Source: Maribacter sp. (GTDB lineage Bacteria; Bacteroidota; Bacteroidia; Flavobacteriales; Flavobacteriaceae). From it: 64,000 nucleotides of DNA. Below, piece by piece: positions 5,317 to 39,959 of this stretch; positions within the stretch are counted from its first letter, which is position 1, and each line of letters opens with the position of its first letter. Position numbers and translations under genes: made by a program. Under the pieces are notes generated by a model. The model searched no databases. It was not told where the DNA came from and saw only the letters and a program-made list of their open reading frames with translations. The stretch is from positions 1 to 64,000 of the forward strand of contig JAHDDL010000003.1 of assembly GCA_020629415.1 (NCBI GenBank), given 5' to 3'.

Positions 5317-7593
5317 ATGGCATTTGATATTGAGATGATCCGCAAGCATTACGATGCACTACCAGGAAAAATTCAAAAAATAAAAGACAAACTCCAGAGG
5401 CCCCTCACCTTATCTGAAAAAATTCTTTATGCGCACTTGCATGAAGATTCGCCTTTAGCTAAATATGAGAGAGGAAAGGATTATGTATTCTATGCACCTG
5501 ATAGAGTAGCGATGCAAGATGCGACAGCTCAGATGGCTTTGTTACAATTTATGATGGCGGGTAAAAATAAAGTCGCTGTACCATCGACGGTCCATTGCGA
5601 TCACCTTATCCAGGCCAAAATGGGCGCAGATGCAGATTTGCAAAATGCGATTAACACAAGTAACGAAGTATTCAATTTTCTAGAGTCTGTATCTGATAAA
5701 TATGGTATCGGATTCTGGAAGCCAGGTGCGGGTATCATACATCAGGTGGTGCTAGAAAATTATGCATTCCCAGGTGGTATGATGATCGGTACGGATAGTC
5801 ATACTGTCAATGCTGGAGGTCTCGGAATGGTGGCAATAGGTGTCGGAGGAGCAGATGCCGTAGATGTGATGGCAGGGATGGCTTGGGAACTCAAGAATCC
5901 TAAGCTCATAGGAGTGAAACTTACGGGTAAGTTATCGGGATGGTCATCTCCTAAGGATGTTATCCTTCGTGTAGCGGATATATTAACTGTCAAAGGAGGT
6001 ACAGGTGCGATAGTAGAATACTTTGGAGATGGTGCGATTAACTTGAGTTGTACTGGTAAAGGAACCATTTGTAACATGGGAGCGGAGATCGGTGCAACGA
6101 CCTCTACTTTCGGCTATGACGAAAGTATGGATAGATACCTGAGAGCAACAGATAGAGAGGATGTGGCTGATGCCGCCAAGGCAGTGGCAGAGCATCTGAC
6201 GGCAGATCCAGAGTGTTATGAGAATCCAGAGAAATATTTTGATCAGGTCATCGAGATAAACTTATCAGAGCTAAAGCCATTGCTTAATGGGCCTTTCACA
6301 CCAGATCTATCTACTGCTGTGGGTAGTAAGATGACAGAGAGAGCTAAAGAAAAAGGATGGCCACTTGAAGTAGAGTGGGGACTCATAGGATCATGTACTA
6401 ATTCTTCTTACGAAGATCTTTCCAGAGCAGCATCTGTCGCAAAACAAGCTGTAGACAAAGGACTCAAGACCAAAGCAGAATTTGGTATCAATCCGGGCAG
6501 TGAGCAGGTCAGATTCACGACGGAAAGAGATGGTATATTAAAAATATTCGAGAATCTTAATGCGACCATCTTTACCAATGCTTGTGGTCCTTGCATCGGC
6601 CAATGGGCACGATATAACGATCCGATGAATGCACCTAAAAACTCTATCGTCCATTCATTCAATAGGAACTTTGCTAAAAGAGCGGATGGTAATCCTAACA
6701 CACATGCCTTTGTGGCCTCTCCTGAAATGGTGGCTGCTATAGCTATATCTGGTCGATTGGATTTTAATCCGATGACTGATACCTTGACGAATGAGAAAGG
6801 AGAAGAGGTAAAATTGGATGAACCAACGGGATTCGAGCTACCACCTAATGGATTTGCCGTAGAAGATAGAGGATACAATGCACCCGCTGAGGATGGAAGT
6901 AGCGTAGAAGTCAAAGTTGACCCCAGCTCCGAGAGACTGCAATTATTGACACCTTTTACACCTATCAAACCATCAGATATGACAGAGATGCGTATACTGA
7001 TCAAGGTGAAAGGAAAATGTACCACAGATCACATTTCTATGGCTGGTCCTTGGTTGAAATACAGAGGGCACTTGGAGAACATATCTGAGAATTGCTACAC
7101 TGGAGCGATTAACTACTTTAACGAAAAGCCAAATCTTGTCATCAACTACGAGACAGGAGAATACGGCCCAGTACCTGATTCTGCCAGAACTTACCAAAAG
7201 GCAGGCATCGGTACAGTTGTCTTTGGCGAAGAAAACCTTGGGGAGGGTTCTTCTCGTGAGCATGCGGCAATGGAACCAAGATTCTTAGGTGTCAATGCTG
7301 TGATCGTTAAGTCTTTTGCACGTATCCATGAGACCAATCTCAAAAAGCAAGGTATGTTAGCACTGACTTTTGATGATCCTGCGGACTACGACAAAGTGAG
7401 ACAAGATGATAAGGTCAGTCTTTTTGGTTTCGAGACAATGGCACCTGGACAACCTCTTATGGTCTATCTACAGCATCAGGATGGCACGGATGACTACTTC
7501 TTAGTCAACCATTCTTATAATCAAGCGCAAATAGATTGGGTCAGAGAAGGCTCCGCACTTAATAAGATAAGGAAGGATATGGGTGTGGCTTAA
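5317..7593 (+). CDS. acn: Aconitate hydratase
   Basis: A full-length 758-residue aconitase of the mitochondrial type, which isomerises citrate to isocitrate in the TCA cycle. Domains 1-3 carry the iron-sulfur ligands: one Cys in [10 protein letters not shown] (about residue 358) and two in [10 protein letters not shown] (about 424 and 427). The C-terminal swivel domain has the substrate-binding [10 protein letters not shown] motif. Other family signatures are GTDSHT and the DITVKGG-like region [10 protein letters not shown]. It is cytosolic and monocistronic, with a possible TAnnTTTG promoter upstream and a hairpin terminator after the stop. Nothing in the protein is unusual. Confidence 0.96.
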
Positions 7594-16487: not shown

Positions 16488-19229
16488 TTGGAAGAACCTA
16501 GAAAATATCGAATCTTAAGATGGTTGGCTTATGCGGCTTGGGTGCTGTTGTTTTTGACGATGGTTATAGTCGCGAGGTTTATTATTCAGACTAATAATTC
16601 CGATATACCAGCCTTTAGTGAACTCGAAAATCCGCAGTATAACGAGGCCAGCATTATCTATGATGAGAAAGGCAGATCATTCGGTAAGTACTATGTGGAA
16701 AATCGTGAGAATATAGATTACGAAGATTTATCACCTAACATATTAAAGGCCTTATTAGCCACTGAAGATATTCGATTCTTTGATCACAATGGAGTTGACC
16801 TCAAAGCCCTTTTTCGTGTAGCATTCAAAACTATTTTGTTGCAGAAAGAGAGTGCGGGTGGTGGTAGCACCATCAGTCAACAATTGGCCAAGCTATTATA
16901 CAAAAGAAAGAGTCTATCAGGTCTGTCTAAGATACAGAGAGGCGTGGAACTTATCCGTACTAAGGTCAAAGAATGGATAACGGCGATCAGACTAGAGAAG
17001 AGCTATACCAAGGAAGAGATCATATCCATGTACCTTAATAAATTTGAATTTATCAATGGAGCACATGGTATACAATCGGCATCGGAGACTTACTTTAATG
17101 TAGACCAAGAAAACCTCACCATAGAGCAAGCGGCACTCCTCGTCGGCATGCTCAAAAATCCCAATCTTTATAATCCTCTTAGATTTCCTGAGAATGCGAC
17201 TGGACGTCGTAATCTTGTAATCAATCAAATCGAACGGTATTATGATGACGTCGATAGTGAGTTATTGGATTCTATACGGAGTACCGCTCTGGATATGAGT
17301 CGATTTGAGAGGGATTCTCATGATACGGGACCAGCACCATATTTCAGATCAGAACTGACGAAGTGGTTGAGAGGAATATTCAAAAAGGAGAATATCACCA
17401 AAGCAGATGGTGAGGAATATAACGTCTACACAGATGGGCTGAAGATATATACCACTATAAATCTGGATTATCAGAAGTATGCAGAAGAAGCTGTCAAAGA
17501 GCACATGCAGTTTTTGCAGGCTAGATATTGGGAAGTGTGGAAGAATAGAAACCCCTGGACCTATGAGGCTGACAGTTTGCAGAGGATTATAAGAAGTAAT
17601 ACTTTAGAAAGAAAAATTAAAGAATCAGAGAGATATCTGAGTCTTCATAATCAGTACCTAAGTGCGGACAAAACCAAAGCTCAAGAAAAATATGGAAATA
17701 TACCGCTCAATGAAAATGTACTAAAAGAGTTATCGCGGATAGAGTCAAAAGCCACTTCCTGGTCTAATGTTATCTATAAAAAGATTATATCTAAATCCAA
17801 CAGGTCTAAGTACGAATCCCTACTAGGAGATGATGAGATATGGCCTACACTAAAAAATCAATTTCAGAAATTACAAAAGGATTACAAAGAGGTTTTCAAA
17901 AAGAAAATCTCTATGGAGGTCTTCGATTATAACGAAGAGGGGTATAAGGTGATAGAGATGAGTCCTAGAGATTCTGTCCGTTATCATAACCAACATTTAC
18001 AAGCGAGTCTGTTGGCCGTACATCCCATTACTGGTCATATCAAAGCATGGGTAGGGGGACCGGGCTTTAACTACTTTAAGTACGATCATGTCAATTCTCG
18101 TAGACAAGTCGGTTCTACGATTAAGCCCTTTGTCTACGCAACTGCTATAAGTCTGATGGGATTATCGCCATGTCAGACATACAAGGATATACAATACACC
18201 ATAGCCCCTGGTGATGATAATTTATTCGTCGATAAAGAATGGTCTCCTGCCAATGCCAACGAAAAATTCACTGCCAACGACTATAACCTATATCAAGGTC
18301 TTCTTTATTCCAAAAACTCCATTACTGTCAGACTAATCAAAGAAATGGGGAGTGTGGATGTGATCAGAGAGTTACTGGATAATGTTGGAATAGAGAAAGA
18401 TAGAGAATACCCCAATGGGCAACTCGTCGTGCCAAGAGTGCCTTCGATATGTCTCGGTGCCGTAGATCTCACGCTATACGAGATGGCAGGGGCGTATACG
18501 ACATTTGCTAACGACGGAGTCTATACTCAGCCTATATTCGTAAGTAGAATAGAGGATAAAACGGGGAAGGTGATCTACAAAGGATTGCCAGAAACCAAAA
18601 GAGCCATCAATCCACTTTATAATGGTGTGATGGTTGATATGCTAAGGAATAATGTACAAGGAGGATTTGGCCTGGGAGTGAACACAGATATCGGAGGTAA
18701 GACAGGTACAACTAATGATTATGCTGACGGTTGGTTTATGTCTGTTGCTCCAGAACTTGTAACAGGTGTGTGGGTAGGTGGAGATGATAAGTGGATACGT
18801 TTTCTTAGTCTGGACGATGGTCAGGGTTTTGTTATGGCGAGACCAATTGTTCAGAAATTTTTATCAGGAGTGGAGAAGGATTCCACCATAGCTTTTAAGT
18901 CTGATACGCCTTTTCCGACACCGCCGCCAGGTATACTGGAGTTTTTGGATTGCGACAAATACAAACAAAAGTCTGTAGAAGAAGAACAAGATCTTAATAA
19001 ACTAAATGTCAGAGAGGACATTATGGATGATGAGTTTGATGAAGAATTCGGTGATGATTTTGGCGATGACTTCGGAGACGAATTTGAAGATACATTTTCG
19101 GACGAATCGGATATTGAAAATACGGAATCGAAAACAGACTCAAATATTATTAGTACGAATAAGCCTACGCCAGACTCTATTATTCAGCAGATTATGCCTA
19201 TAGATACTTCTGGCGGTGATGGTCGATAA
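16488..19229 (+). CDS. Class A penicillin-binding protein (PBP1A-like)
   Basis: A 913-residue bifunctional peptidoglycan synthase. One membrane helix (about 12-30) precedes a GT51 glycosyltransferase domain with the catalytic Glu in TEDIRFFDHNGVD (E91) and GGSTISQQLAK. The transpeptidase has STIK (S543 to K546), SKN (608-610) and KTGTT (from 738). Between the two catalytic domains lies a long charged helical insert (about 340-480). The C-terminus is strongly acidic, with a repeated GDDF/GDEF pattern near residues 850-867. The start must be TTG at 16488, because a stop lies six codons upstream and the first Met is inside the membrane helix. It ends 12 bases before fabG. Confidence 0.92.
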   Translation: MEEPRKYRILRWLAYAAWVLLFLTMVIVARFIIQTNNSDIPAFSELENPQYNEASIIYDEKGRSFGKYYVENRENIDYEDLSPNILKALLATEDIRFFDHNGVDLKALFRVAFKTILLQKESAGGGSTISQQLAKLLYKRKSLSGLSKIQRGVELIRTKVKEWITAIRLEKSYTKEEIISMYLNKFEFINGAHGIQSASETYFNVDQENLTIEQAALLVGMLKNPNLYNPLRFPENATGRRNLVINQIERYYDDVDSELLDSIRSTALDMSRFERDSHDTGPAPYFRSELTKWLRGIFKKENITKADGEEYNVYTDGLKIYTTINLDYQKYAEEAVKEHMQFLQARYWEVWKNRNPWTYEADSLQRIIRSNTLERKIKESERYLSLHNQYLSADKTKAQEKYGNIPLNENVLKELSRIESKATSWSNVIYKKIISKSNRSKYESLLGDDEIWPTLKNQFQKLQKDYKEVFKKKISMEVFDYNEEGYKVIEMSPRDSVRYHNQHLQASLLAVHPITGHIKAWVGGPGFNYFKYDHVNSRRQVGSTIKPFVYATAISLMGLSPCQTYKDIQYTIAPGDDNLFVDKEWSPANANEKFTANDYNLYQGLLYSKNSITVRLIKEMGSVDVIRELLDNVGIEKDREYPNGQLVVPRVPSICLGAVDLTLYEMAGAYTTFANDGVYTQPIFVSRIEDKTGKVIYKGLPETKRAINPLYNGVMVDMLRNNVQGGFGLGVNTDIGGKTGTTNDYADGWFMSVAPELVTGVWVGGDDKWIRFLSLDDGQGFVMARPIVQKFLSGVEKDSTIAFKSDTPFPTPPPGILEFLDCDKYKQKSVEEEQDLNKLNVREDIMDDEFDEEFGDDFGDDFGDEFEDTFSDESDIENTESKTDSNIISTNKPTPDSIIQQIMPIDTSGGDGR

Positions 19230-19241
19230 ATTATAATATTG

Positions 19242-19988
19242 ATGAAATTATTAGAAGGTAAAAAAGTAATTATAACTGGTGGCTCTCGAGGGATCGGAAG
19301 ATCTATAGTCCGATCTTGTATAGAGCAAGGTGCTGATGTGGCTTTCACTTATAGGTCATCGGCGCAGCAGGCAGAAGACCTCATCACCGAGATCAATGTC
19401 TCACCAGAAAGAATAAAGGCTTATCAATCAGACGCCAGTCTATATGAGGCGGCAGGTCAGTTGGTGGATTCTGTGCTAAAAGATTTTGGTAAGGTCGATG
19501 TGCTGATTAATAATGCCGGTATAACTAATGATACACTCATGTTACGTATGAGTGAGGACCAATGGGATAAGGTCATAGAAGTCAATCTCAAATCCGTATT
19601 TAACCTGACCAAGCACATACTCAAACCGATGCTCAAAAACAGAGCAGGATCTATTATTAATATGAGTTCTGTGGTCGGTGTATTCGGTAATGCAGGACAA
19701 GCCAACTATGCGGCGTCTAAGGCTGGTATTATAGGATTTACTAAGTCCATTGCCAAAGAGGTGGGATCTCGTGGAATCAGATGTAACGCCATCGCTCCAG
19801 GCTTTATAGAATCAGAGATGACAGAAACTCTGGATGATAAAGTCAAAGAGGCTTACATCAGTAATATTCCACTCAAAAGATTTGGCAAGGGGATGGATGT
19901 GGCTAATGCTTGTGTTTTTCTTGGCTCTGACTTATCTACTTATATATCGGGCCAAGTACTCAGTGTCTGTGGAGCCATGAATACTTAA
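19242..19988 (+). CDS. fabG: 3-oxoacyl-ACP reductase (FabG-like SDR)
   Basis: A 248-residue short-chain dehydrogenase with the NAD(P) motif GGSRGIGR, NNAGITND, the catalytic Ser in INMSSVVG and YAASK (Tyr and Lys). The block GIRCNAIAPGFIESEMT is typical of FabG, which reduces 3-oxoacyl-ACP in fatty-acid elongation. I place the start at ATG 19242 rather than the TTG three bases earlier. It follows the PBP gene by 12 bases and precedes the M43 protease by 12, suggesting a transcript of unrelated functions. A related SDR with another substrate cannot be excluded. Confidence 0.85.
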   Translation: MKLLEGKKVIITGGSRGIGRSIVRSCIEQGADVAFTYRSSAQQAEDLITEINVSPERIKAYQSDASLYEAAGQLVDSVLKDFGKVDVLINNAGITNDTLMLRMSEDQWDKVIEVNLKSVFNLTKHILKPMLKNRAGSIINMSSVVGVFGNAGQANYAASKAGIIGFTKSIAKEVGSRGIRCNAIAPGFIESEMTETLDDKVKEAYISNIPLKRFGKGMDVANACVFLGSDLSTYISGQVLSVCGAMNT

Positions 19989-20000
19989 GCTAGGATATAG

Positions 20001-21206
20001 ATGATACGATTAGCGTCACTATGGTTTTTAGTATTGATTTGTTTTTCGTGTAGCAATAGGTTGCAGGTTCTTTCTATCAAGGATGTATCTCAATTAGATA
20101 ACATACCGATATCTGTCAAGGACAAAGGTTGCAGAGACCCACTAAATCATGTCCCTGATGAATATACGGTTACTAAGTCCATCAAGGTTAACGTACATAT
20201 TATAGATGACCTTGTAGGAGACAAAAATTTCTCCTTAGAAGCAGGACAAGATTTTATGCAGAAGATGATCTGGGATGGAAACAAAAGACTAAAGAACAAC
20301 AAAAAGATGAACCTTCCCGAAGGGAATGATACACCCGTACTTAATCCTAAATATAGATACGATGTCAGAGGCGTACTTAATAAGGATGACAATGGATTCT
20401 ACAAACACCTAGAAGAAAATGATCCTTATTATATCGCCCATGGAAAACATAGGAACAACTACAACAGAAAAATCTTAGAAAAATATAATATCGGAGCGGA
20501 CACGGTATTAAACATATTTGTTTTTCCACACCATCCAGATAGTCTCAGATCTAAAAAATATAAAGCAAGACGTACAGGAATCGCCCTAGGGACCTCTCTT
20601 AAGATGGCAGGGATGATAGAAGATGGCAAAGAGCCATGGACTTATGCGACTCTGCTCAATCACGAAATAGGGCACATACTGGGACTCAGCCATTCTTGGA
20701 TAACTAATGACAGATGCGATGATACACCTAAACATCCTAACTGCTGGGATACCACAGGAAAGAAACCTTGCGAAGGATCACATTCCAACAATATGATGGA
20801 TTATAATAAGAGTCAAATGGCTATTACGCCATGTCAGCTAGGTATAATCCATAAGGGATTTAATACTATTAATGGTAAAACACGGAAACTTCTCAATCCG
20901 AATTGGTGCAAATTGAATACTAAGGATACCATTACTATTGATTCGGAAATAAAATGGCTAGGAGCAAGAGATGTAAATCAGCATATCGTCGTAAAATCTG
21001 GTGCGACACTCGAAGTACACTGTAGATTATCTATGCCAGAAAATGGAAAAATTACGGTAGAGCCTGATGGTAAACTTATACTCTTCGATGCTCTTGTGCA
21101 TAATTCTTGTGGGAAAACATGGGATGGTATAGAGTTGCAGTCTTACAAGAAAAGGAGAGCCATTATAGAGTCCTATGGAGATACGAATATTGAAAATGTA
21201 AAATAG
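20001..21206 (+). CDS. Lipoprotein M43-like (pappalysin/cytophagalysin) metallopeptidase
   Basis: A 401-residue protein starting with a lipoprotein signal (MIRLASLWFLVLICFSC, lipid Cys near 17). The metzincin zinc site HEIGHILGLSH is near residue 221, followed by a Cys-bounded loop (RCDDTPKHPNC) and the Met-turn MMDYNKSQ, as in peptidase family M43. The last 80 residues look like a beta-rich scaffold with NQHIVVKSGATLEVHC and ITVEPDGKLILFD repeats, resembling a short beta-helix. It probably degrades extracellular or surface protein. It is the last gene of a run of closely spaced plus-strand genes, followed by 317 bases without a gene. Confidence 0.8.
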   Translation: MIRLASLWFLVLICFSCSNRLQVLSIKDVSQLDNIPISVKDKGCRDPLNHVPDEYTVTKSIKVNVHIIDDLVGDKNFSLEAGQDFMQKMIWDGNKRLKNNKKMNLPEGNDTPVLNPKYRYDVRGVLNKDDNGFYKHLEENDPYYIAHGKHRNNYNRKILEKYNIGADTVLNIFVFPHHPDSLRSKKYKARRTGIALGTSLKMAGMIEDGKEPWTYATLLNHEIGHILGLSHSWITNDRCDDTPKHPNCWDTTGKKPCEGSHSNNMMDYNKSQMAITPCQLGIIHKGFNTINGKTRKLLNPNWCKLNTKDTITIDSEIKWLGARDVNQHIVVKSGATLEVHCRLSMPENGKITVEPDGKLILFDALVHNSCGKTWDGIELQSYKKRRAIIESYGDTNIENVK

Positions 21207-21451
21207 CTTACAATTTTAATAAAACGATACGGCCTTAGTTCGATGATTGAATATAGTTTTTATTTTTATGAAAAATAATCGAGAAAAAAAATCGCCGTTT
21301 TCTCATAACCAATGATCTCTTCCTTACATTAATAGGCGTAGCTCCAAAAAATCATTCATTTTAGAAGATTTATAAGTAGCTAAGGAACTCAATAGAACAA
21401 CTTTAAGAAGAGTTCCGACTAAATTTTGGGTAAACACTTTTGTAATATTCT
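21207..21451. other. Non-coding stretch before the structured element
   Basis: AT-rich sequence between two convergent peptidase genes. I see no open frame with coding character and no promoter match. Together with the structured element at 21452-21525 it makes up the 317-base gap between the M43 and M4 genes. Confidence 0.6.
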
Positions 21452-21525
21452 TGCATGACAAGGTGCTTTGACTTGATCAGAGTATAATTCGGAATGTATG
21501 TCCGAGCCTCGTCATGCATTTTTTT
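21452..21525 (+). terminator. Large branched terminator-like RNA structure
   Basis: TGCATGAC (21452-21459) pairs with GTCATGCA (21511-21518). The stem continues inward after an A-C mismatch (AGGT with GCCT). Two small hairpins lie inside: CTTTGA with TCAGAG, and TCGGA with TCCGA. A run of seven T follows on the plus strand. The element forms a three-way junction between convergent genes, overlapping the stop of the M4 gene by two bases. It may simply terminate the M43 transcript, or it may be a small structured RNA. Confidence 0.55.
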
Positions 21526-24500
21526 ATTCCTTGATTAAAGGAAGTGTATCTATGATTTTTCCGTCTCGTAAGAAAGATATATAGTAGATGCCAGATGCCA
21601 TTCCAGAGCAATTGATACGCCTTATTCCCTTCAGCTTATTTCTGGACATGACAAGTTGACCTATACTATTGAATATGCTGAGGTCAAATTCTAACTCAGG
21701 ATTTTCGTTTTGTACGTAGAGAAAATGAGATGTGGGATTGGGAAAAATAACAAACCCTTGCTCGCTGAATTCCTGATTTTGGTCTATACCTTCTCTTAGA
21801 GTTGTATTATCAAAAAATGCAATATCTCGATCCGTAAAGAAGTCGGCAGCTTGCGCGCCAAGTGCACCTCCTGATTGCGTTAGCACCTCTATGATAAGGG
21901 GACCCTTATAACCAGAGACAAGATCAAACTTTCGTTTATAGACAACGCCTTCTTCCTGACCATATATAAGTGGGAAGGTGGTAGAATCGGTTTTGACTTG
22001 CACGATAGTACCGAAACTCTCGTCCAATATGACATCGAATCTATTTTGATTAAGGAATTGTGCCAGATTGAATTCAAAAATAGGTCGACTCATATCAGAT
22101 GCATCTATACAGTAGACTATTTCGCTTGTTAAAGAGGTAGAGCTAAATATTCCTTCTACATCAGGACAGGCTCGGTAGAATACGTCATCAATAGCGGCTA
22201 TAGCTAATCCGTTATTTTGTTGCCAACTTATAATAGTGTCCGTATCATAGGAATCAAAAACAGTATTGATTTCATAGTAATCTCTTCTATGCGTCTCTTC
22301 ATATTTTTCTAAGTATCCTTTCACTATATGTGTGATTCCGCTATAACTATTTTCTTGCTGATCGTTATCCTCATTTATATCAGAAGAATGCCTTATAGTC
22401 ACATTATAATCTTTGATTCCGTCTGGGATTTCGATATCAAAAAGAGAAGCCGAGCCGCCATAATAGTTCAGAGGTAATACGGCCGACTGTAGAGGACGGA
22501 TTATTGTAAAATTCCCTTTATCGGTTTTAACATCAAAGAATATTGTATCGCCTGCATCCAAAATTTCACATCCTCGATTTCTATAGCCGTATATATAACG
22601 TGTAGGAGATGTTCCTTCACATAGAGTTCTATTGCTTAGGCTAAAGTTGCTTAGCTCTAAGTCTAGACCTTGTATCTCGGACATAAAAATATTGCCAGTC
22701 ACCCTATTGTTAAGTCTGTTATTATCCACTTCCCAAACTTCTATTACGTATGTTCCGGCGTTATCCGGATTTAATTTTATAGGAGTTTTAAAAGTATAAA
22801 TTATAGAATCTCCAACTGCAAGATCTAATGGTACAGATAATGACTCCTGGATAGCCGTAGTTCGGTTTTGGACAAATCTTATGATTATACTATCTGTCAT
22901 GGGATAAGTGGACCGCCCCTTATTTCTAATTATCACACTGGCGAAGTGATCAGTTGTCGTATCACATATTGTTGTGATACCCGATTCTAGTTCTAGTCCC
23001 AAATCTAAATTATCTATATCTGGATAAAGACCTACAGCTTTCCATGATTCGAGCACGCTACGATATTGATCAGATTCTTCACCAAAAAGATCAGCGGTCG
23101 CCTCTAGGGTCGCATACATACAATCAAAATAATTGCTGCTCTCTGTAAGGTATCCTGTCTGTGATACAAACACTATGTCCAATGCATCTTTCCATCCTAT
23201 GGAAGCCACGTTATATTCTTCTGGTGTTTCGTTTGTGCCAGCTCCCCCTTCTACTAATAAGTAGAACCAATAATTGAATACGCCGCTATTAGTATGTACG
23301 CCTCCATTATCAGCTGTTCCAGTTCGCCAGTAGTCACCACCATAATATTTAGGATCTGATCGCTCATGTGGATTTTCTAATGACCTGAAATAATTCACCT
23401 CTTCTGATAACCTAAAACGATCTCCTATGTACCAATTGAAATTCTGAGGATCGGCGTAGTGCTCCAGACCTTTGCCTATGATGTCACTTATGGATTCATT
23501 CAGCGCTCCTGACTCGTTGCGATAAATCAAATTAGAGGTACTATTCGTCCAGCCATGAGCAAACTCATGTCCTACAACATCAAGAGTAGTTAGCGGACCA
23601 TATCTATCACAATCTCCATTTCCATAGTTGGTCCTGCTTCCATCCCAATAGGCATTGACATAATAGCGTCCTCTGACATGCACTACCGATACTAGTTCGC
23701 CACCTTGACCGTCTAATCCATCCCAATCAAAATATTCTTGCATCATATCATAGTATTTGGAGGTGCAATAATGCGCATCGTGAGCCACTTCGTCACGTTG
23801 CTCATTGAATGTATCCCATATATTATCGCTGTCCCAAAAAGTATCTCTGTCTGTATTCGCATCCAGCGTAATAATGCCTTGTCCCCTTGTTAGGTCTCTG
23901 AGTAGATAGCGGTCTGGCGCAATGGAATCAGTAATAATTTCTTGCTCTCCATAGTATAGAGTTTTGGCGCGTGCTTTTGTAGCATGACCTTGTATTATAG
24001 AGAAGCTGTTACTTATTTTACCATTATGTGCATCAAAGTATACCAGATGTTTGATCGGCTCTTCGAAATCGTATGAACTGATTTCGTAACCATGAGCAAG
24101 TGCGTAATTGCCAGAAAACTCTGGATGACTTTTATCCATGATTACCGTTTCTTTATATGAGGATGACCATGAGACATGAGTGATATCGTCTATATCCTGA
24201 TCTTGTATTAGTTTGGATTCAAATTGTTCTTCGATTCCCTTTGCAAATGTTTTTTGAAGTGGTGCATTAAGAATGTCGACCTTTTTGATAGGAAATATAT
24301 TTCCAGTCGATTTTATTATGCGGCCATCTTTTTCGTGCAATGTGTAGACTGCACCTTTTACCTTGATGTCCTTATGATATTGTTGGTATTTCAGTCTAGC
24401 GTATCCTGACTTATCTGGTCGATCCGATATGAGTAAGAATTTGTCTTGATCCGAAAGATTTAATTCGGCTCTTTTCTTAGCGAAAAAATTTGATCGATCT

Positions 24501-24625
24501 AACGAAAGATCCTTATAATATCTGATTTTATTATTCTGGAATTGCTCTAGCGGTGTGGAGATATTGGCTTGACTAATTACTATAAATGGCATTACCAGAA
24601 CAAGCAAAAACAAGATAGGTCGCAT
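21524..24625 (-). CDS. M4-family (thermolysin-like) metallopeptidase with T9SS sorting domain
   Basis: A 1033-residue secreted protease. A signal peptide is followed by an FTP/PepSY-type propeptide (to about residue 210). The catalytic domain has GHEFAHGW (zinc His near 352 and 356) and the third ligand Glu in NESGALNESISDIIG, plus the active-site His region NGGVHTNSGVFNYWFYLL. About 450 residues of beta-rich domains follow (CARDB-like repeats: IRNKGRSTYPMTDS, YGYRNRGCEILDAGDT). A type A T9SS domain closes the protein (FVIFPNPTSHFLYVQ). It should be exported to the cell surface or medium for protein degradation. Confidence 0.92.
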   Translation of the reverse strand: MRPILFLLVLVMPFIVISQANISTPLEQFQNNKIRYYKDLSLDRSNFFAKKRAELNLSDQDKFLLISDRPDKSGYARLKYQQYHKDIKVKGAVYTLHEKDGRIIKSTGNIFPIKKVDILNAPLQKTFAKGIEEQFESKLIQDQDIDDITHVSWSSSYKETVIMDKSHPEFSGNYALAHGYEISSYDFEEPIKHLVYFDAHNGKISNSFSIIQGHATKARAKTLYYGEQEIITDSIAPDRYLLRDLTRGQGIITLDANTDRDTFWDSDNIWDTFNEQRDEVAHDAHYCTSKYYDMMQEYFDWDGLDGQGGELVSVVHVRGRYYVNAYWDGSRTNYGNGDCDRYGPLTTLDVVGHEFAHGWTNSTSNLIYRNESGALNESISDIIGKGLEHYADPQNFNWYIGDRFRLSEEVNYFRSLENPHERSDPKYYGGDYWRTGTADNGGVHTNSGVFNYWFYLLVEGGAGTNETPEEYNVASIGWKDALDIVFVSQTGYLTESSNYFDCMYATLEATADLFGEESDQYRSVLESWKAVGLYPDIDNLDLGLELESGITTICDTTTDHFASVIIRNKGRSTYPMTDSIIIRFVQNRTTAIQESLSVPLDLAVGDSIIYTFKTPIKLNPDNAGTYVIEVWEVDNNRLNNRVTGNIFMSEIQGLDLELSNFSLSNRTLCEGTSPTRYIYGYRNRGCEILDAGDTIFFDVKTDKGNFTIIRPLQSAVLPLNYYGGSASLFDIEIPDGIKDYNVTIRHSSDINEDNDQQENSYSGITHIVKGYLEKYEETHRRDYYEINTVFDSYDTDTIISWQQNNGLAIAAIDDVFYRACPDVEGIFSSTSLTSEIVYCIDASDMSRPIFEFNLAQFLNQNRFDVILDESFGTIVQVKTDSTTFPLIYGQEEGVVYKRKFDLVSGYKGPLIIEVLTQSGGALGAQAADFFTDRDIAFFDNTTLREGIDQNQEFSEQGFVIFPNPTSHFLYVQNENPELEFDLSIFNSIGQLVMSRNKLKGIRRINCSGMASGIYYISFLRDGKIIDTLPLIKE

Positions 24626-27215: not shown

Positions 27216-27229
27216 CGCCAAGAAATAAT

Positions 27230-27273: not shown

Positions 27274-27324
27274 TAATCAAATATTCTAAGGTTACAATTA
27301 ACTCCAAAAAGAACCTGAGGTTAT

Positions 27325-28029
27325 TTATCTGACTACCTTGAATTGTTTCGCAATTCTATTGTTGTTTTTTAGATTGATGGACATTGTATAGAGACCTGGC
27401 GTATATTGTTGTACGTTAATCTCGGTTGGTGCCTCGTTAACTTTTTCGATATAAATAGATTCCATTCTTTGACCTAAAGAATTATATATCTCGATATTGG
27501 CTTCTTCGCCTGGATTGTCCTCTATGGTCAAGTTGACGATGCTAGAAGCTGGATTAGGGTAGATATTGATTGATTCAGCCATTATATCAAAGTCATCAAA
27601 TCGCTGTAATAATTCATCAGTTTTTTCTGGTACAGTGACTTTACCTTTTATGGTAAGATATGTAATGGCGGGATCTGTATTGGTTGTAATAGTTACTCGT
27701 TTGGATTGTAACCCTTTTTTGTTCTTGCTATCAAACTGAACTAATAGGCTAGCGGTTTGGCCTGGCGCAATGGGTTCTTTAGGAAATCTTGGAACTGTAC
27801 ATCCGCATGAACCTTTAGCATTGATAATTATAAGTGGTTCTTCTCCAGTATTCGTGAAATAAAATACATTTTGGATTTTTTCGCCTTGTGTAATTTCTCC
27901 CCACTCAAAAGTCTCTTCTGCAAAGTTAATTGTCGTTGTGGCAATTGACTCTTCTTTGGTTTCTGTAGATTGTGCATAACTACTCAGGGCAAATAAAAAT
28001 ATGCCCAACAATGTAAATGTTTGTTTCAT
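27325..28029 (-). CDS. DUF1573 protein with T9SS sorting domain
   Basis: A 234-residue exported protein. A signal peptide is followed by a DUF1573 (ASPM/SPD-2/Hydin-like Ig) domain at about 35-135, with FEWGEITQGEKIQ and the hallmark KGSCGCTVPRFPKEPIAPG. A type A T9SS domain occupies the last 80 residues (SINIYPNPASSIVNL then YTPGLYTMSI). DUF1573 proteins are abundant in Bacteroidota, probably as surface structural or interaction modules. The two parts show that this one is exported beyond the outer membrane. Confidence 0.88.
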   Translation of the reverse strand: MKQTFTLLGIFLFALSSYAQSTETKEESIATTTINFAEETFEWGEITQGEKIQNVFYFTNTGEEPLIIINAKGSCGCTVPRFPKEPIAPGQTASLLVQFDSKNKKGLQSKRVTITTNTDPAITYLTIKGKVTVPEKTDELLQRFDDFDIMAESINIYPNPASSIVNLTIEDNPGEEANIEIYNSLGQRMESIYIEKVNEAPTEINVQQYTPGLYTMSINLKNNNRIAKQFKVVR

Positions 28030-28177
28030 CTATTTCACTTTTTTGGTAATTGATTGATTCTAATGCTCATAATAGAAATGAAGGTCTGACCTAAGATATT
28101 TTTGATTAAGATGGTTATTCTATGAATAGATGAAATTGAAGGATAAAATGGTGCAAATGATAGATGACCAATCGTTA

Positions 28178-29935: not shown

Positions 29936-29996
29936 AGCTTTATAGAAGTCTTATAAAGTTAGTATTCCTAAGAGAATAAGATCTACAAAGTCAGTC

Positions 29997-30632
29997 TTAC
30001 ATATTATAAGCGGCCGTGGTCACTATAATCCACTGTGTAAACTGTGAATCAAGATTAGCTCTGTCTTGTTTCCACAGTGTCAGGTTGAATGACCAATCAT
30101 TGGTGATCTTTATATTAGAACCTATTAAATGGCGCGTACGCTGCAACTCATTGACACCATCTAATCGAAAAAATAATTCTGTACCAATATATGGAGTAAA
30201 TCTACCTTGCGTTTTGAATGTAAAGGTTGGATGCCATCGCATAAAATTTGGGTCATCTATCTCGATATCCTGAGCAATGTGCCATCGTATAACATTGGAC
30301 ATTCCTATATTATTGGATAAGTTGGCTTTGTGCTTAATATCAAAAAACCAAAAGTTCCGATTGACGCCATTCTGCAACCACCAGTATCTCTCAAGGATTG
30401 CCATAGAAAACCCTTTGCCCAAATTAAAAGCTATGGAGATATCTATGGAAGAATTGTCATATTCCGAGAGGTCGTTGCGATGTCTTATTATGGGTCTTAT
30501 GGCGTAAGATACTTCGTCATTGATCTTGCTCGATAATTTGATCGATGTCCAGGATTGCAAATCGGACTGGGCTATGCCGCTATCAGATTGGCCTAAGAAT
30601 ATCAGGATAAGTAGTAGAGATAATTTTCTCAT
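29997..30632 (-). CDS. DUF2490 family outer-membrane-like protein
   Basis: From the ATG at 30632 this is a 211-residue protein with a signal peptide (MRKLSLLLILIFLGQSDSG). It is followed by alternating beta strands rich in aromatic residues (RYWWLQNGVNRNFWFFD), as in DUF2490, a small predicted outer-membrane barrel family. The C-terminal ITNDWSFNLTLWKQDR segment is typical. The frame reaches ATG 30656, but that start would overlap the upstream acyl-CoA dehydrogenase; the later start leaves an 11-base gap. Function is unknown. Confidence 0.75.
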   Translation of the reverse strand: MRKLSLLLILIFLGQSDSGIAQSDLQSWTSIKLSSKINDEVSYAIRPIIRHRNDLSEYDNSSIDISIAFNLGKGFSMAILERYWWLQNGVNRNFWFFDIKHKANLSNNIGMSNVIRWHIAQDIEIDDPNFMRWHPTFTFKTQGRFTPYIGTELFFRLDGVNELQRTRHLIGSNIKITNDWSFNLTLWKQDRANLDSQFTQWIIVTTAAYNM

Positions 30633-30642
30633 TGACTCGTGA

Positions 30643-31848
30643 TTACTTAAATGCATTGAGGCCAGTTACGTCCATGCCTGTTATTAATAAATGGACATCA
30701 TGTGTTCCCTCATAAGTGAGTACTGTTTCGAGGTTCATCATGTGGCGCATACAAGGGTATTCGTTAGTTATTCCCATGCCTCCATGTATCTGACGGGCTT
30801 CTCTTGCTACCTCTAGGGCCATGTGTACATTGTTTCTTTTGGCCATAGATATCTGAGCTGGAGAGGCTTTTCCTTTATTCGCTAATGATCCGAGCCTCCA
30901 TGCCATTAACTGTGCTTTAGTGATTTCTGTTATCATTTCGGCTAGCTTCTTTTGAGTCAACTGAAACTGGCCTATTGGCTTGTCAAATTGTATGCGCTCC
31001 TTACTATATCTAAGAGCAGAATCATAGCAATCCAATGCGGCTCCTATAGCACCCCAGGCGATTCCATATCTTGCTTTTGATAGGCAAGAAAGAGGACCTT
31101 TGAGTCCGACGACATTCGGAAGTATATTTGATTTTGGTACGCGTACATCTTCGAATATCAACTCTCCTGTAATGCTTGCTCTTAACGACCATTTGCCATG
31201 AATCTCTGGAGCGGAGAAGCCCGGTGTTCCTTTTTCTACAATGACACCTTGTATCTTTCCTTCTGGGTTTTTAGCCCATACTACAGCTAGATCGGCGACG
31301 GGACTATTAGTGATCCATAACTTAGCGCCGTTAAGGATTATGTCATTGCCATCTTCCACAAAAGAGGTAATCATTCCTCCTGGGTTAGAGCCATGATCTG
31401 GCTCCGTCAGTCCAAAACATCCTATAAATTCTCCCGATCCTAGCTTGGGTAAATACTTTTTCTTTTGTTCTTCACTACCAAATCTATATATGGGATACAT
31501 CACCAGAGATCCCTGTACAGAAGCCATACTGCGCACGCCAGAGTCTCCTCTTTCTAGCTCTTGCATTATAACGCCGTAAGCTATTTCGTCCATACCGCCT
31601 CCGCCATACTCTGCGGGTAGACTTGGTCCATAGGCCCCTATCTCCGCAAGCCCTTTGAATAATTGGGTAGGGCATTCTGCTTTCTCCGAGTATTCTTCTA
31701 TTATGGGGCTTACCTCCTGTTTTACCCATGCTCTTACAGCCTCTCTGGCAAGAAGGTGATCTTCGCTGAGTAATTCGTCTATGTTATAGTAATCATGGTG
31801 TTGGAACTTATCCACTCTGGCCGTTGTAGGTGTACCGTTTTGTATCAT
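30643..31848 (-). CDS. gcdH: Acyl-CoA dehydrogenase, glutaryl-CoA dehydrogenase-like (left copy)
   Basis: A 401-residue flavoprotein from the ATG at 31848; an in-frame TTG at 31872 is less likely. The GCDH-type block GVRSMASVQGSLVMYPIY, the FAD-binding IGCFGLTEPDHGSNPGG, KLWITNSP and the catalytic-base region LTYEGTHDVH are all present. GCDH oxidises and decarboxylates glutaryl-CoA to crotonyl-CoA in lysine and tryptophan breakdown, passing electrons to ETF. It aligns throughout with the second copy at 43183-44361, yet differs at many positions and in codon usage. A broader acyl-CoA substrate is possible. Confidence 0.87.
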   Translation of the reverse strand: MIQNGTPTTARVDKFQHHDYYNIDELLSEDHLLAREAVRAWVKQEVSPIIEEYSEKAECPTQLFKGLAEIGAYGPSLPAEYGGGGMDEIAYGVIMQELERGDSGVRSMASVQGSLVMYPIYRFGSEEQKKKYLPKLGSGEFIGCFGLTEPDHGSNPGGMITSFVEDGNDIILNGAKLWITNSPVADLAVVWAKNPEGKIQGVIVEKGTPGFSAPEIHGKWSLRASITGELIFEDVRVPKSNILPNVVGLKGPLSCLSKARYGIAWGAIGAALDCYDSALRYSKERIQFDKPIGQFQLTQKKLAEMITEITKAQLMAWRLGSLANKGKASPAQISMAKRNNVHMALEVAREARQIHGGMGITNEYPCMRHMMNLETVLTYEGTHDVHLLITGMDVTGLNAFK

Positions 31849-32009
31849 TAGATGTCTGATTAGGAGGGTCAAAGGTATGATATATATAGTAATATCTCCG
31901 TAGAAATTAGCACACAGAAATTGGGGTAAATACCTAAAATAAAATCATGGATTGCCCCAATTGAAGTACGCTCTACTTGCTTTTAGTTTTATATGAAAAT
32001 AAAGAACAC

Positions 32010-32795
32010 ATGATCAGACAAGCTATTATAACCACGCTAACCCTCATCCTCCTTTCTTCTTGCCAGTTTGACCAGAAGAAGTTAATCAACCAACAATTAG
32101 AAGAAAAGCAAGATGTCATAATGGAATTGCAAGACCAAATAGATCATCTGCAATCAACTAACGACAATCTACTAGATAGAATGGCCGACCTCTCAGTCAT
32201 CAATCGAAATGATGCCGAAAGCATCAGAGAATCCATGCGATCTCTCAATAGACAATTTGAATATATAGAGGAATTATCTGACGAGGTAGAGCGAAAAGAT
32301 TCTATCAATCAATTGCTGGCGGCAACGCTTAAAAGTTCTCTTATAGATTATGATGATAGTGATATACAAGTGGAGGTCAAGGGAAATGCTGTGATGGTTT
32401 CGCTGTCTGATAAGATGATGTTCAGCACAGGCAGTGCGCGGATCAATAAAGCGGCTTACGAGGTACTGGGTAAGGTTGCACTTATCATCAATGAGCAATC
32501 TGATATGAATGTACTCATAGAAGGACACACCGATAACGTTCCCATCAAAAACAGAGTCTATAGAGACAACTGGGACCTGAGTGTACACCGTGCTACCGCC
32601 GTCGTCAGATTATTACAAAACAACTTCCAAGTCGATCCTCAACGATTAACCGCTGCTGGTAGATCAGAATATTTACCCAAATCAAATAATGACAGTACCA
32701 CAGGAAGAAGAAATAATAGACGTACCGAAATTACTATTACTCCGAGATTAGATGACTTTTTTAAGTTACTGGAGGTGTCAGCTGAATTGAGTTAG
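32010..32795 (+). CDS. OmpA-family peptidoglycan-binding lipoprotein
   Basis: From the ATG at 32010 the protein has 261 residues: a lipoprotein signal (ITTLTLILLSSC), a long coiled coil (about 20-100, heptads of QLEEKQDVIMELQDQI type) and a C-terminal OmpA domain with LIEGHTDNVPIKN and the peptidoglycan-binding NNRRTEI motif. It probably tethers the outer membrane to peptidoglycan. The upstream TTG at 31977 gives a longer frame that would hide the signal. CTC leucine codons are common, as in the rest of the left part. It is the last gene before the tRNA-Asp boundary. Confidence 0.88.
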   Translation: MIRQAIITTLTLILLSSCQFDQKKLINQQLEEKQDVIMELQDQIDHLQSTNDNLLDRMADLSVINRNDAESIRESMRSLNRQFEYIEELSDEVERKDSINQLLAATLKSSLIDYDDSDIQVEVKGNAVMVSLSDKMMFSTGSARINKAAYEVLGKVALIINEQSDMNVLIEGHTDNVPIKNRVYRDNWDLSVHRATAVVRLLQNNFQVDPQRLTAAGRSEYLPKSNNDSTTGRRNNRRTEITITPRLDDFFKLLEVSAELS

Positions 32796-32850
32796 TGAGG
32801 TTTGCAGTAGTACTGGACTTTAGAGAAGCATTATCCTCTTCGTAGAATAT

Positions 32851-32883
32851 AAAAATCCCCTCAAATCAATGACTTGAGAGGAT
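32851..32883 (-). terminator. Terminator downstream of tRNA-Asp
   Basis: On the minus strand a ten-base stem (32874-32883 with 32855-32864, one G-T pair) is followed by a T run (A run 32851-32855 on the plus strand). It begins only eight bases after the tRNA 3' end. Confidence 0.75.
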
Positions 32884-32890
32884 TAGTGAG

Positions 32891-32964
32891 CGGTCTGGAC
32901 GGGACTCGAACCCGCGACCCCCTGCGTGACAGGCAGGTATTCTAACCAACTGAACTACCAGACC
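32891..32964 (-). tRNA. tRNA-Asp (GTC)
   Basis: The minus strand reads as a complete 74-base cloverleaf without encoded CCA. The acceptor stem GGTCTGG (from 32964) pairs with CCAGACC (ending at 32892), with G as discriminator. The anticodon loop CTGTCAC carries GTC, and the T arm is GCGGGTTCGAGTCCCGT. The 5' side has a perfect Bacteroidota promoter and the 3' side a terminator. The gene sits exactly where codon usage and gene content change. Confidence 0.96.
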
Positions 32965-32981
32965 GTGGCGTTTAGCGAGTG

Positions 32982-33012
32982 CAAATATATGTGGTTTATT
33001 TAATTGCACAAA
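32982..33012 (-). promoter_or_regulatory. Promoter of tRNA-Asp
   Basis: On the minus strand TTTG (33012-33009), a 19-base spacer and TATATTTG (32989-32982) match the Bacteroidota consensus TTTG-N19-TAnnTTTG exactly. The -7 box ends 18 bases before the tRNA 5' end. Confidence 0.8.
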
Positions 33013-33036
33013 CATTTTTTTTACTTTTTTTTAAAT

Positions 33037-33966
33037 CTAGAGAAATTTATTTCTTTCTACGAGGAAAGTATTGAGCACCGTTGAGAAATCTCTGTGTATG
33101 TCTATGTCCACATATTTAATTTTATATTGAGCGCATTTCATTTTAATATCAGATAGATACGTAGTAATTCGTTCGTTATATGCTTCTTTGATATTGTCTG
33201 CGTAAAGGTCTAAATGCTCTCCTGTTTCTACATCAACAAATCTTTTGGGCGTATTTTCAAAATCGAAAAATAATTCATGTTGCTTGTCCATCGGATGAAA
33301 AAGAACCACATCATGCTTGTTGTATTTTAAATGACGTAGTGCTTCAAACAGTTCATCATCTTTTTTTTCAGTTTGAAACATGTCGGTAAACAGAAAAATG
33401 AGACTTCTTCGCTTTATATTTTCTGCTATTTGATGTAAGTAGGTATAAGTGTTGGTCTCTTTTGGAGGATTTTTGGCCTTGCTAATCTCACTTAATTGTG
33501 CCAATAACATTTGAAAATGACGTTCACTTCCTTTTTCAGGGGCATAATAATTATAAGTGTCAGAATAAATGCTTAAGCCTACGGCATCTCGCTGCCTTTT
33601 AAGCACGTTCATGAGCGCAGCAATCGCTAGGACGCTGAATCCTATTTTGTTCAAAGAATCTATGCTTACATTATCAACCTCTGGATAATACATGGAAGCG
33701 GAATTATCCAATATCATATGGCATCTTAAATTGGTCTCTTCTTCATATCGCTTTGTGTAAAGCTTATCGGTTTTCGCAAAGAGTTTCCAGTCTATGTGTT
33801 TGGTGCTTTCGCCATTGTTATAGATTTTATGTTCTGCAAATTCTGCAGAAAATCCATGGAAAGGGCTTCTGTGTATTCCACTAATGAACCCTTCTACTAC
33901 TTGATTGGCAAGTAGCTCTAGGTTAGAGAATAATGATGATTTATTTAATTCTGATTGTAAATTCAC
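33037..33966 (-). CDS. DUF58 domain protein
   Basis: A 309-residue DUF58 protein (vWA-like fold) opening with GTG at 33966. The hallmark DUF58 block is EHKIYNNGESTKHIDWKLFAKT, followed by a MIDAS-like DNSASMYYP segment and SLIFLFTDMFQ. DUF58 proteins typically partner with a MoxR ATPase; here the neighbours are thioredoxin and dnaE, an arrangement I associate with Flavobacteriaceae. Leucine codons are TTA/CTA/CTT with no CTC, unlike genes left of the tRNA. A co-encoded MoxR is not next to it in this window. Confidence 0.88.
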   Translation of the reverse strand: MNLQSELNKSSLFSNLELLANQVVEGFISGIHRSPFHGFSAEFAEHKIYNNGESTKHIDWKLFAKTDKLYTKRYEEETNLRCHMILDNSASMYYPEVDNVSIDSLNKIGFSVLAIAALMNVLKRQRDAVGLSIYSDTYNYYAPEKGSERHFQMLLAQLSEISKAKNPPKETNTYTYLHQIAENIKRRSLIFLFTDMFQTEKKDDELFEALRHLKYNKHDVVLFHPMDKQHELFFDFENTPKRFVDVETGEHLDLYADNIKEAYNERITTYLSDIKMKCAQYKIKYVDIDIHRDFSTVLNTFLVERNKFL

Positions 33967-34030
33967 AATTCTAAAGATACTAAAGACGGTTTAACTTTAA
34001 GGACGCGAAGAATTAAAATTATCCCAAATA

Positions 34031-34058
34031 AAAAATCCTGCTAAAAGCAAGATTTTTT
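34031..34058 (-). terminator. Terminator after trxA
   Basis: AAAAATC-C-TGCT (34031-34042) pairs with AGCA-A-GATTTTT (34046-34057), with A/T runs on both sides. It lies 38 bases beyond the thioredoxin stop. Confidence 0.6.
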
Positions 34059-34095
34059 AAATTTTATATTCCCCTTTTGGGAGTTAAGCGGGCTT

Positions 34096-34413
34096 TTACA
34101 AAGCTGCGTCTATAGCATCTGTGTAAACTTTCTTAGGTGATACACCTACTTGTCTGCTTACAATTTCACCACCTTTAAATACCAATACCGTTGGTATGTT
34201 ACGTACACCGTATTTAGCGGCAAATTCTTGATTTGCATCTACGTCTACTTTTCCTACAACAGCTTTACCGTCATATTCAGTACTAACTTCGTCAATGATA
34301 GGACCTACCATACGACAAGGACCGCACCATGCTGCCCAAAAATCAACTACTACTGGTTTATCGCTTTTTAAAACTACCTCGTCAAAAGTAGCATCTGTTA
34401 TTTCTAGTGCCAT
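34096..34413 (-). CDS. trxA: Thioredoxin
   Basis: A 105-residue classical thioredoxin with the redox site WCGPC (near residues 29-33), the buried Asp in VVVDFWAAW, and the cis-Pro loop RNIPTVLVFKGG. It is cytosolic and reduces protein disulfides for enzymes such as ribonucleotide reductase and peroxidases. A possible TAAATTTG -7 box lies at 34437-34444 on the minus strand. It sits between dnaE and DUF58 with its own terminator. Confidence 0.96.
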   Translation of the reverse strand: MALEITDATFDEVVLKSDKPVVVDFWAAWCGPCRMVGPIIDEVSTEYDGKAVVGKVDVDANQEFAAKYGVRNIPTVLVFKGGEIVSRQVGVSPKKVYTDAIDAAL

Positions 34414-34436
34414 TTTAATATCTTTTATTGATTATG

Positions 34437-34444
34437 CAAATTTA
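34437..34444 (-). promoter_or_regulatory. Possible -7 promoter element for trxA
   Basis: On the minus strand TAAATTTG matches TAnnTTTG 23 bases before the trxA ATG. A good -33 box is not obvious. Confidence 0.45.
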
Positions 34445-34592
34445 GTCAATTATTCTTCTGTTTCCTTACAGGCTGGTAATTCGTTTTACCTATTAAGGTA
34501 TCAAGCTAATTTATTTGTTTATATAGTTCTTTTCTTACATCTACAACTAAACAAAAGTAAATTTTAATTAGCGTAGCATAGTACTTAAGATT

Positions 34593-37500
34593 CTAATTCA
34601 GTTTAAAGTGAACGTCTTGTTTTTCTAAAAGTTGTAATAACTCTGTAGAAATATTGACTTTTTGTTTTCTACTATTTAATGTCACCTTAATTTTCTCTTT
34701 CATTTCATACACAATAAAGTTGACCGGGTGTTCCCCTTTATGATTTGTAAAGGTGTCTTTTAAGGTTCGTACATTTTCCTCTTTTAAATCGGCAATGTTC
34801 AATTTTATGGTAAGTTTTCTGGCGTAGGTCTCCATCACTTCTTGTAAAAGCATAAAGCTATTGAACTGCATTCTAGGGTCTCCTTTTTTTCCGGTGTCCT
34901 TATTCATCCATCCATCGCGAACAAATAATTTAACGTAGGCAAACGAATTGACCATTAAAAAATGCCTGAATTTTAGATACTCTTCCCCAAAAATCCGGAA
35001 TTCATAGGAGTCCGTATAATCTTCCATGGTAAATGCCGCCCAGCCTTTTCCGTTTTTAGATACTCTGTGCTGCACATCTGTAATTACCGCAGCAAAGGTG
35101 AGTTCCCTATTAACGTAGGTGGGTAGGTCATTTACGCAAGCTATGTTGGCGTTACAGAATGCTTTCACTTCCGTTTTAAAATCATCTAACGGGTGACCTG
35201 AAATATAAATGCCTACAACTTCTTTTTCGCGACGAAGTTTTTCCATGGTACCCCATTCTTCACATGGCGGCACCACAGGTTCCGGTATTTGCACTTCACT
35301 GGCATCTCCGAACAAACTTACTTGGCTAGAGTTTTCGCTTTCTTGGAATTTAGCACCATATTTTATGGTTTTTTCCAAAAAGGTAACTCCGTCTCCTTCA
35401 CTGTGAAAGTATTGGGCCCTGTGTGTATCGCCAAAGGAATCAAAGCCTCCTGCGACGGCCAAACTTTCAAATGCTTTTTTGTTGGCTGCGCGAAGGTCTA
35501 TACGCTTTGCAAAATCAAAAACGGATTTATACGGTCCGTCTTCTTTTCTGTTTTCAACGATGGTTTCTACAGCACCACGACCAACACCTTTTACGGCGCC
35601 CATGCCAAAACGTACGGCACCGGCATCGTTCACGGCAAACTTGTAGTAAGATTCGTTTACGTCTGGACCAAGAACTTCTAGGCCCATACGCTTACATTCT
35701 TCCATAAAGAAGGTAACCTGCTTAATGTCGTTCATATTATTGCTCAGTACCGCGGCCATATACTCGGCAGGGTAGTGGGCCTTGCAATATGCGGTTTGGT
35801 AAGCGATCCAGGCATAGCAAGTGGAGTGCGATTTGTTAAAGGCATAAGCGGCAAATGCTTCCCAGTCTTTCCAGATTTTTTCCAGTTTGTCAACGGCATG
35901 CCCTTTGGCCGAAGCTTGTTCAATGAACTTTGGCTTCATCTTGTCCAGTACATGCTTTTGCTTTTTACCCATTGCCTTACGCAAGACATCAGCTTCACCT
36001 TTTGTAAAGTCTGCCAATTTCTGCGATAGCAGCATCACTTGCTCTTGGTATACGGTAATGCCATAGGTTTCCGCTAAGTATTCCTCACAGGCATCAAGAT
36101 CATATACAATTTCTTCGGTACCGTGCTTACGGGCAATGAAACTTGGTATGTATTCCATAGGACCAGGTCGGTACAAGGCGTTCATGGCAATAAGATCCGC
36201 AAATACCGTTGGTTTCAGCGATCTCATGTGCTTCTGCATTCCGGGAGATTCATATTGGAAAACACCTACCGTTTCTCCTCTTTGAAAGAGCTCGTACGTT
36301 TTTATATCGTCTAAAGGAAAATTTTCAGGGTCTAATTCAATACCATGTTTCGCTTTTACAATTTTAACGGTATCCTTGATCAGGGTCAGTGTTTTCAGTC
36401 CCAAGAAATCCATCTTCAGTAATCCCGCATCTTCCACAACAGAGTTGTCAAACTGCGTACAATACATTTCTGAATCTTTCGCTAGGGCAACGGGAACGAA
36501 TTTGGTGATATCATCTGGCGTAATTATGACCCCGCAGGCATGAATACCGGTGTTACGAACCGAACCTTCTAAGATATAGGCCTGATTTAAGGTTTCAGAT
36601 TCAGGACCATCGCCTTCGGAAATTGCTAAAAGTTCGTTTATCTTTTCTAAATCTTCTGACCTGAATTTTGAACGTAATACCTTTTCATCTACCCCAATAA
36701 TCTTTTTTAGCTTGGACATGTCTGGTATCAACTTTGCCATGCGATCAGAATCTTGCAATGGCAAATCTAAGGCACGTGCCGTATCTCTAATAGCAGATTT
36801 TGCGGCCATGGTGCCATAAGTGATAATTTGAGCTACTTGGTTTGCACCGTATTTATCAATTACGTAGTCCATTACACGACCACGCCCTTCATCATCAAAG
36901 TCAATATCAATATCGGGCATACTTACACGATCCGGATTCAGGAAACGCTCAAAAAGAAGGTCGTACTTAATTGGATCTAAATTCGTAATCCATAAGCAAT
37001 AGGCAACGGCGGAACCTGCGGCGGATCCACGACCAGGGCCTACGGATACATCCATGGTCCTTGCTGCCCTAATGAAATCTTCCACGATCAAGAAGTAACC
37101 TGGATAACCGGTTTTTTCGATTACTTTAAGCTCAAAATCTAAACGCTCGTCAATTTCGGGAGTAATTTCCCCATATCTTTTCTTGGCACCTTCATAAGTA
37201 ATATGGCGTAAAAATTTATTCTCGCCGCGTTTACCACCGTCTAGTTTGTCTTCTTCAAATTGAAATTCTTCTGGTATATCGAACGCAGGTAACAATACAT
37301 CACGTGCCAAGGTAAAAGTTTCTACCTTATCTATAATTTCTTGAATGTTGATGATGGCTTCGGGAATATCCTTAAAAAGCTCCTTCATCTCTTCAGATGA
37401 CTTAAAATAGTATTCTTGGTTGGGCAGCCCGTAACGGTATCCGCGACCACGGCCTATGGGTGTAGCCTGTTTTTCACCATCTTTTACACAAAGAAGAATA

Positions 37501-39946: not shown

Positions 39947-39959
39947 ATTATAAGAAACG

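Follow-up and report, generated by a model that had tools for sequence, protein, structure and literature searches.

A Maribacter contig that probably joins DNA of two bacterial orders within a tRNA-Asp gene

The window analyzed here, the 64,000 nucleotides at positions 1-64000 of contig C31 in genome G000 (Maribacter sp.), raises the question of why the genomic background changes at a tRNA-Asp gene (gtc), the sole tRNA found in the window by ARAGORN, and whether the DNA on its two sides belongs to one organism. C31 has 144,718 bases, in an assembly of 3,895,488 bases and 81 contigs with a reported completeness of 94.95% and a reported contamination of 0.07%. The original prediction had preferred a mis-assembly through the conserved tRNA, and our analysis strongly supports this explanation on the basis of the gene order in a second genome of the species, the end of another G000 contig, and the affinities of the proteins on the left. 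Judged from sequence comparison, C31 is almost certainly a chimera whose first 32.9 kb derive from a bacterium of family f19 and whose remainder is Maribacter. The label f19 denotes a family of the same class as Maribacter and of a different order, perhaps Saprospiraceae. The features on which the argument draws are listed in Table 1.

Table 1. Features of the window as read under a chimeric origin of C31 ("foreign" denotes probable f19 origin).
Feature	Position	Strand	Description and basis
Foreign segment	1..32889		About 33 kb, spanning the beginning of C31 up to the tRNA-Asp 3' end; codon usage and f19 best hits
Aconitase, foreign	5317..7593	+	Pfam Aconitase; protein identity to f19
Four-gene block, foreign	16488..24625		PBP1A, short-chain dehydrogenase, putative lipoprotein, and M4 peptidase with T9SS tail; colinearity with G855
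Acyl-CoA dehydrogenase, glutaryl-CoA-dehydrogenase-like, foreign	30643..31872	-	Pfam and f19 identity
OmpA-family protein, foreign	31977..32795	+	Pfam OmpA; final gene ahead of the junction
Terminator stem-loop, foreign, behind tRNA-Asp	32857..32881		Match to G803
tRNA-Asp (gtc), gene carrying the putative false join	32890..32964	-	ARAGORN
Junction interval	32890..32966		77-base sequence shared without a difference by G803 (f19) and the same-species G873
Native Maribacter segment	32967..64000		98.4% to G873

Codon usage differs between the two sides of the tRNA. CTC accounts for 12.6% of the leucine codons on the left (n = 910) versus 3.2% on the right (n = 851), ATT for 26.7% of the isoleucine codons (n = 805) versus 49.6% (n = 635), and ATA for 45.5% versus 32.6%. 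The codon shift described in the original prediction was therefore real for CTC and also holds for ATT, but ATA, which had been named as a mark of the left side, is used freely on the right as well (33%), so that ATT and CTC separate the halves better than ATA does. A change-point analysis over the gene order gave a log LR of 74.6, a value reached in none of 2000 gene-order shuffles (shuffle maximum, 50.4). The change point itself fell at 33966/34096, one gene to the right of tRNA-Asp, because the DUF58 gene (33037-33966) uses CTC. At 19% CTC, this gene contradicts the claim that genes from DUF58 onward use almost none, and since it shifts the apparent break, placement of the join from composition alone was rejected.

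To put the two halves in the context of the genome, we examined 40 further stretches of G000: C31:64001-84000, C31:124719-144718, and a single stretch on each of 38 contigs among the 80 besides C31. All 40 showed the usage of the right half (CTC, 0.002-0.057; ATT, 0.422-0.586), compared with 0.126 and 0.266 in the left half, indicating that the left half is the odd one; the right-half composition carries on in both stretches of C31. Ordinary variation of codon usage within one genome, with no join at all, would agree with the nearly equal GC content of the two sides (38.6% on the left and 37.5% on the right) and with the left-like CTC usage of DUF58. However, neither the shuffles nor the 40 stretches leave room for it, the family to which homology points switches at the tRNA, and the gene order of the second genome described below refutes it; we regard its probability as negligible.

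The right side had been described as flavobacterial, and it proved to be Maribacter. Its DNA polymerase III alpha (34593-39029) has 98% protein identity to that of Maribacter zhoushanensis, and positions 32866-48990 align as one piece to this species at 84%. When the genus was searched for tRNA-Asp, the matches included G873, a second genome labelled as the same species as G000, in which positions 32846-64000 of the window correspond to C8:249844-280978 at 98.4%. On this 1.13 Mb contig, C8:238525-249929 corresponds at 98.6% to a different contig of G000 (C74:7948-19342), so that the order in G873 is the end of C74, tRNA-Asp and the right half of the window, uninterrupted, with the two alignments meeting in tRNA-Asp. 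C74 terminates 48 bases inside tRNA-Asp, and these 48 nt overlap exactly with window positions 32890-32937. Over the final 79 nt of C74, M. zhoushanensis has 100% identity at the same locus. The contiguity in G873, together with the end of C74 in tRNA-Asp, identifies C74 as the true left neighbor of the right half; the true continuation is thus present on another contig, which stops in the common sequence. It should be noted that C74:4132-7918 aligns to G873 at 96.9% and that the first 3.8 kb of C74 do so at only 67%, a finding that we counted against a chimera and that indicates that the two strains differ there.

The left half of the window is absent from this place in G873. When 80 kb of that genome (C8:210001-290000) were compared with window positions 1-32845, nothing aligned except an acyl-CoA dehydrogenase orthologue (65%). 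Across the genus, the DNA comparison covered window positions 12890-32889 in 36 genomes, including G000 itself, with eight candidates scored per genome, and among the matches listed the other 35 genomes contained patches of up to about 1.1 kb at 64-80%; positions 1-12889 were represented in the genus comparison by the aconitase, as protein. In the original prediction, a reference genome with the gene order of the window across the tRNA would have spoken against a mis-assembly, and G873 shows a different order. Its alternative was a real rearrangement in which both halves belong to one organism and recombined at tRNA-Asp. Nothing beyond the contig sequence itself speaks for such an event, which is contradicted by left-half proteins from another order, by the existence of the unrearranged order, split over C74 and C31, and by the small size of the patches in the other genomes of the genus, and which we consider extremely unlikely.

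As to the origin of the left half, the proteins encoded there point to f19. For PBP1A (16488-19229), nine of 345 genomes of the class gave a match at E ≤1e-150, G000 included, four of them being f19 and four f78; at E ≤1e-200, 136 of 150 f19 genomes matched, the best at 68% (G855). The protein encoded at 30643-31872, which Pfam calls an acyl-CoA dehydrogenase and which we read as a glutaryl-CoA dehydrogenase, has 76-89% identity in 16 of 17 f19 genomes, G754 being the exception at only 39%, and 70% identity to the native G000 orthologue in the right half (43186-44355). Likewise, the foreign aconitase has 84-90% identity in 8 of 17 f19 genomes and 73-76% in 8 more, the best match (90%) covering 594 of 758 residues, versus 75% both to the native G000 copy (C55:49270-51531) and to G873. 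Comparison of the aconitase with a sample of the phylum was uninformative, with 75% to f19 and Maribacter alike, and was replaced by the closer f19 genera, which resolved the affinity. G754 gave no aconitase match and no close acyl-CoA dehydrogenase in these searches, though it belongs to the same genus as G855. The OmpA-family protein has its best f19 match at 55% (G772), and G000's own homologue, on C57, is at 46%. In addition, the four-gene block is colinear, in inverted orientation, in G855 (C5:34033-25403), with protein identities of 69, 72, 51 and 36%, and the same G855 contig carries the acyl-CoA dehydrogenase. The best-hit families therefore differ between the halves, as the original prediction had expected of a chimera, and C31 contains two lineages, with the right half tied to G873 and three left-half proteins to f19.

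Several observations on the left half were counted against a chimera. Only 5 of its 26 proteins matched in an 80 kb comparison with G855, the other 21 giving no match; no one f19 genome was nearest for all left genes; and the nearest relatives belong to other genera, none close having been found (68% for PBP1A, 90% for aconitase). A codon model built from four f19 genomes separated the halves weakly, scoring above zero for 25 of 27 genes on the left and for 4 of 25 on the right, and its ATT share of 0.50, as against 0.27 in the left half, is a misfit. Given this misfit and the weak separation, we base the lineage of the left half on protein identity and not on codon usage.

The gene content of the left half is mixed. 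Pfam families include aconitase, glycine cleavage T, PBP1A, MoxR-type ATPase and acyl-CoA dehydrogenase. At other loci, G000 carries counterparts of the aconitase, the MoxR-type ATPase, the acyl-CoA dehydrogenase and an OmpA homologue. Several other left proteins have no family or only general ones. T9SS tails scored above the Pfam cut-off in 3 of the 26 proteins (21524, 27325 and 28178). The core genes that the original prediction placed on this side are represented by aconitase, PBP1A and others of chromosome type, and the content as a whole is not the accessory one of an island.

The junction was located by exact identity. The window is identical to G873 over 32890-33063 and to the f19 genome G803 over 32889-32966, and because the 77 bases of 32890-32966 are common to both, the switch lies inside that interval, that is, within sequence shared by the two lineages, G803 being only a relative of the left organism. 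The complete tRNA-Asp gene occurs without a mismatch in G873, in M. zhoushanensis and in the f19 genomes G803 and G102. Its flanks are hybrid: the 5' (upstream) side is Maribacter, matching G873 base for base through 33063, and the 3' side is of f19 type, window positions 32846-32966 having 97% identity over 121 nt to G803 C1:152300-152418. The terminator had been predicted to lie on the left of the tRNA, and the stem-loop in that flank is f19-like; it was beside tRNA-Asp at none of the 29 genus loci that we read, tRNA-Asp having been matched in 33 other genomes of the genus, and the flank of one locus (L221) was too short to judge. A break exactly at tRNA-Asp, as originally proposed, is thus borne out by homology, which switches inside the gene, but not by composition alone, with its break one gene further right.

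Identity of the tRNA-Asp gene is not universal in f19, a point that we counted against a chimera: among 12 f19 loci, 2 were identical over the whole gene (G803 and G102), 2 over 63 nt, and 8 had no exact 50-nt core. In a search of 18 genomes for tRNA-Asp, G774 and G860 gave no match at the threshold. Contigs end at or in tRNA-Asp in 3 of 17 f19 genomes (G754 C13:1-55, G792 C20:1-49 and G809 C53:4-78), which we counted in favor of a chimera, and the gene may therefore often break assemblies. An OmpA or glutaryl-CoA dehydrogenase gene adjoining tRNA-Asp was not found in f19, the 14 f19 loci scanned containing no tRNA; in G803, OmpA and tRNA-Asp are on separate contigs (C38 and C1). Aconitase and tRNA-Asp are about 6 kb apart in the f19 genome G748 (C4:41590-49972), and the foreign aconitase of the window is about 25 kb from tRNA-Asp.

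The proposed mechanism builds on a long run of identity between the tRNA-Asp genes of the two organisms, which measures 77 bases when G803 is compared with this species. With k-mers or overlaps of less than about 77 bases, an assembler could enter this run from one organism and exit it into the other. C74, the true left continuation, would have been cut off 48 bases inside the gene. The error was presumably made by the assembler and not during library preparation, where an artefact would produce an identical picture, and the f19 organism was presumably present in the same sample.

Genomic islands integrate at the 3' ends of tRNA genes by means of tyrosine integrases, and the window resembles such islands in having its discontinuity at a tRNA 3' end, in a genus in which G007 and G010 carry a second copy of the 3' part of tRNA-Asp. 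The copy in G007 (49 nt, 96%) is about 38 kb off, beside a tyrosine integrase, and that in G010 (47 nt, exact) about 60 kb off, so integration at this gene does take place in the genus. A large f19 segment might have been integrated for real, with the end of C74 on one side of it and the complete tRNA on the other. The part of tRNA-Asp that C74 carries is exactly 48 nt, a length like that of the repeats of these relatives (47-49 nt), and geometry alone therefore cannot dismiss integration; moreover, a left-half helicase (24725-26629) matches the phage-family profile phrog_25411, and PHROGs relates both this helicase and an AAA ATPase to phage families. Unlike tRNA-targeted islands, however, the left half has no integrase that we could find, in agreement with the original prediction: Pfam gave none in the 26 left proteins and 4 further ORFs, and PHROGs, applied to 19 of these proteins and to one additional ORF, gave none either, all within the part of the segment visible on the contig from window position 1. 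Its genes are of chromosome type and of another order, several have counterparts elsewhere in G000, one block follows f19 gene order, and the same-species genome G873 has no insertion at the site. As a second copy of the tRNA-Asp 3' part, G000 yielded only the end of C74, and the sequence at that end is the native flank of the intact tRNA-Asp in G873; away from the tRNA, the segment is visible as far as window position 1, where C31 starts. We consider integration very unlikely, and we leave it this small probability because the C74 end has the length of a repeat and the far side of the segment is outside the contig. Slightly less likely still is that at least 33 kb of chromosome from the other order really lie behind tRNA-Asp in this strain, brought there by an element with its integrase beyond the contig end.

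Probable integrated segments occur at this gene elsewhere in the genus. In G007, C1:1248261-1286162 (L258 and L259; tRNA-Asp locus L249) is an apparent genuine island of about 38 kb. Its far repeat has the integrase immediately on the inner side and a McrBC protein immediately on the outer side, and an AbiEi/AbiEii pair is located close to the tRNA. In M. zhoushanensis (L028:16085-23857), the 3' end of tRNA-Asp and the terminator recur as a near-copy of 52 nt about 7.6 kb downstream of the tRNA, which suggests a further integrated segment at this site. Across the 29 loci (L221-L249), the sequence directly behind tRNA-Asp is highly variable, with several terminators and flanks, as expected of an integration hotspot.

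With a chimeric join as the preferred reading of C31, the apparent gene order across tRNA-Asp is not to be trusted, and about 33 kb (23% of C31) should not be assigned to Maribacter. The false join would give G000 a spurious second aconitase and a spurious second glutaryl-CoA dehydrogenase, and it would mimic a recent gene transfer between orders. The reported contamination of 0.07% was counted against a chimera; it also gave no sign of this join. There is nothing biologically novel at the junction, which is an ordinary artefact, and tRNA genes common to different orders are a plausible spot for other such joins. Chimeric contigs in public genomes and MAGs are the target of GUNC, as outlined in PMC8201837, and C31 is like the contigs outlined there in carrying two lineages despite a low contamination estimate. 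It differs from them in general in that the join is placed within 77 bases and the true neighbor contig is identified. Joins at tRNA-Asp are not named in the titles and abstract openings of the general works on chimeric contigs and assembly that a literature search listed.

Finally, in G010, a genus member assembled as a single contig, the matches to dnaE and aconitase are broken into several pieces, some with TGA stops, which suggests uncorrected sequencing errors.
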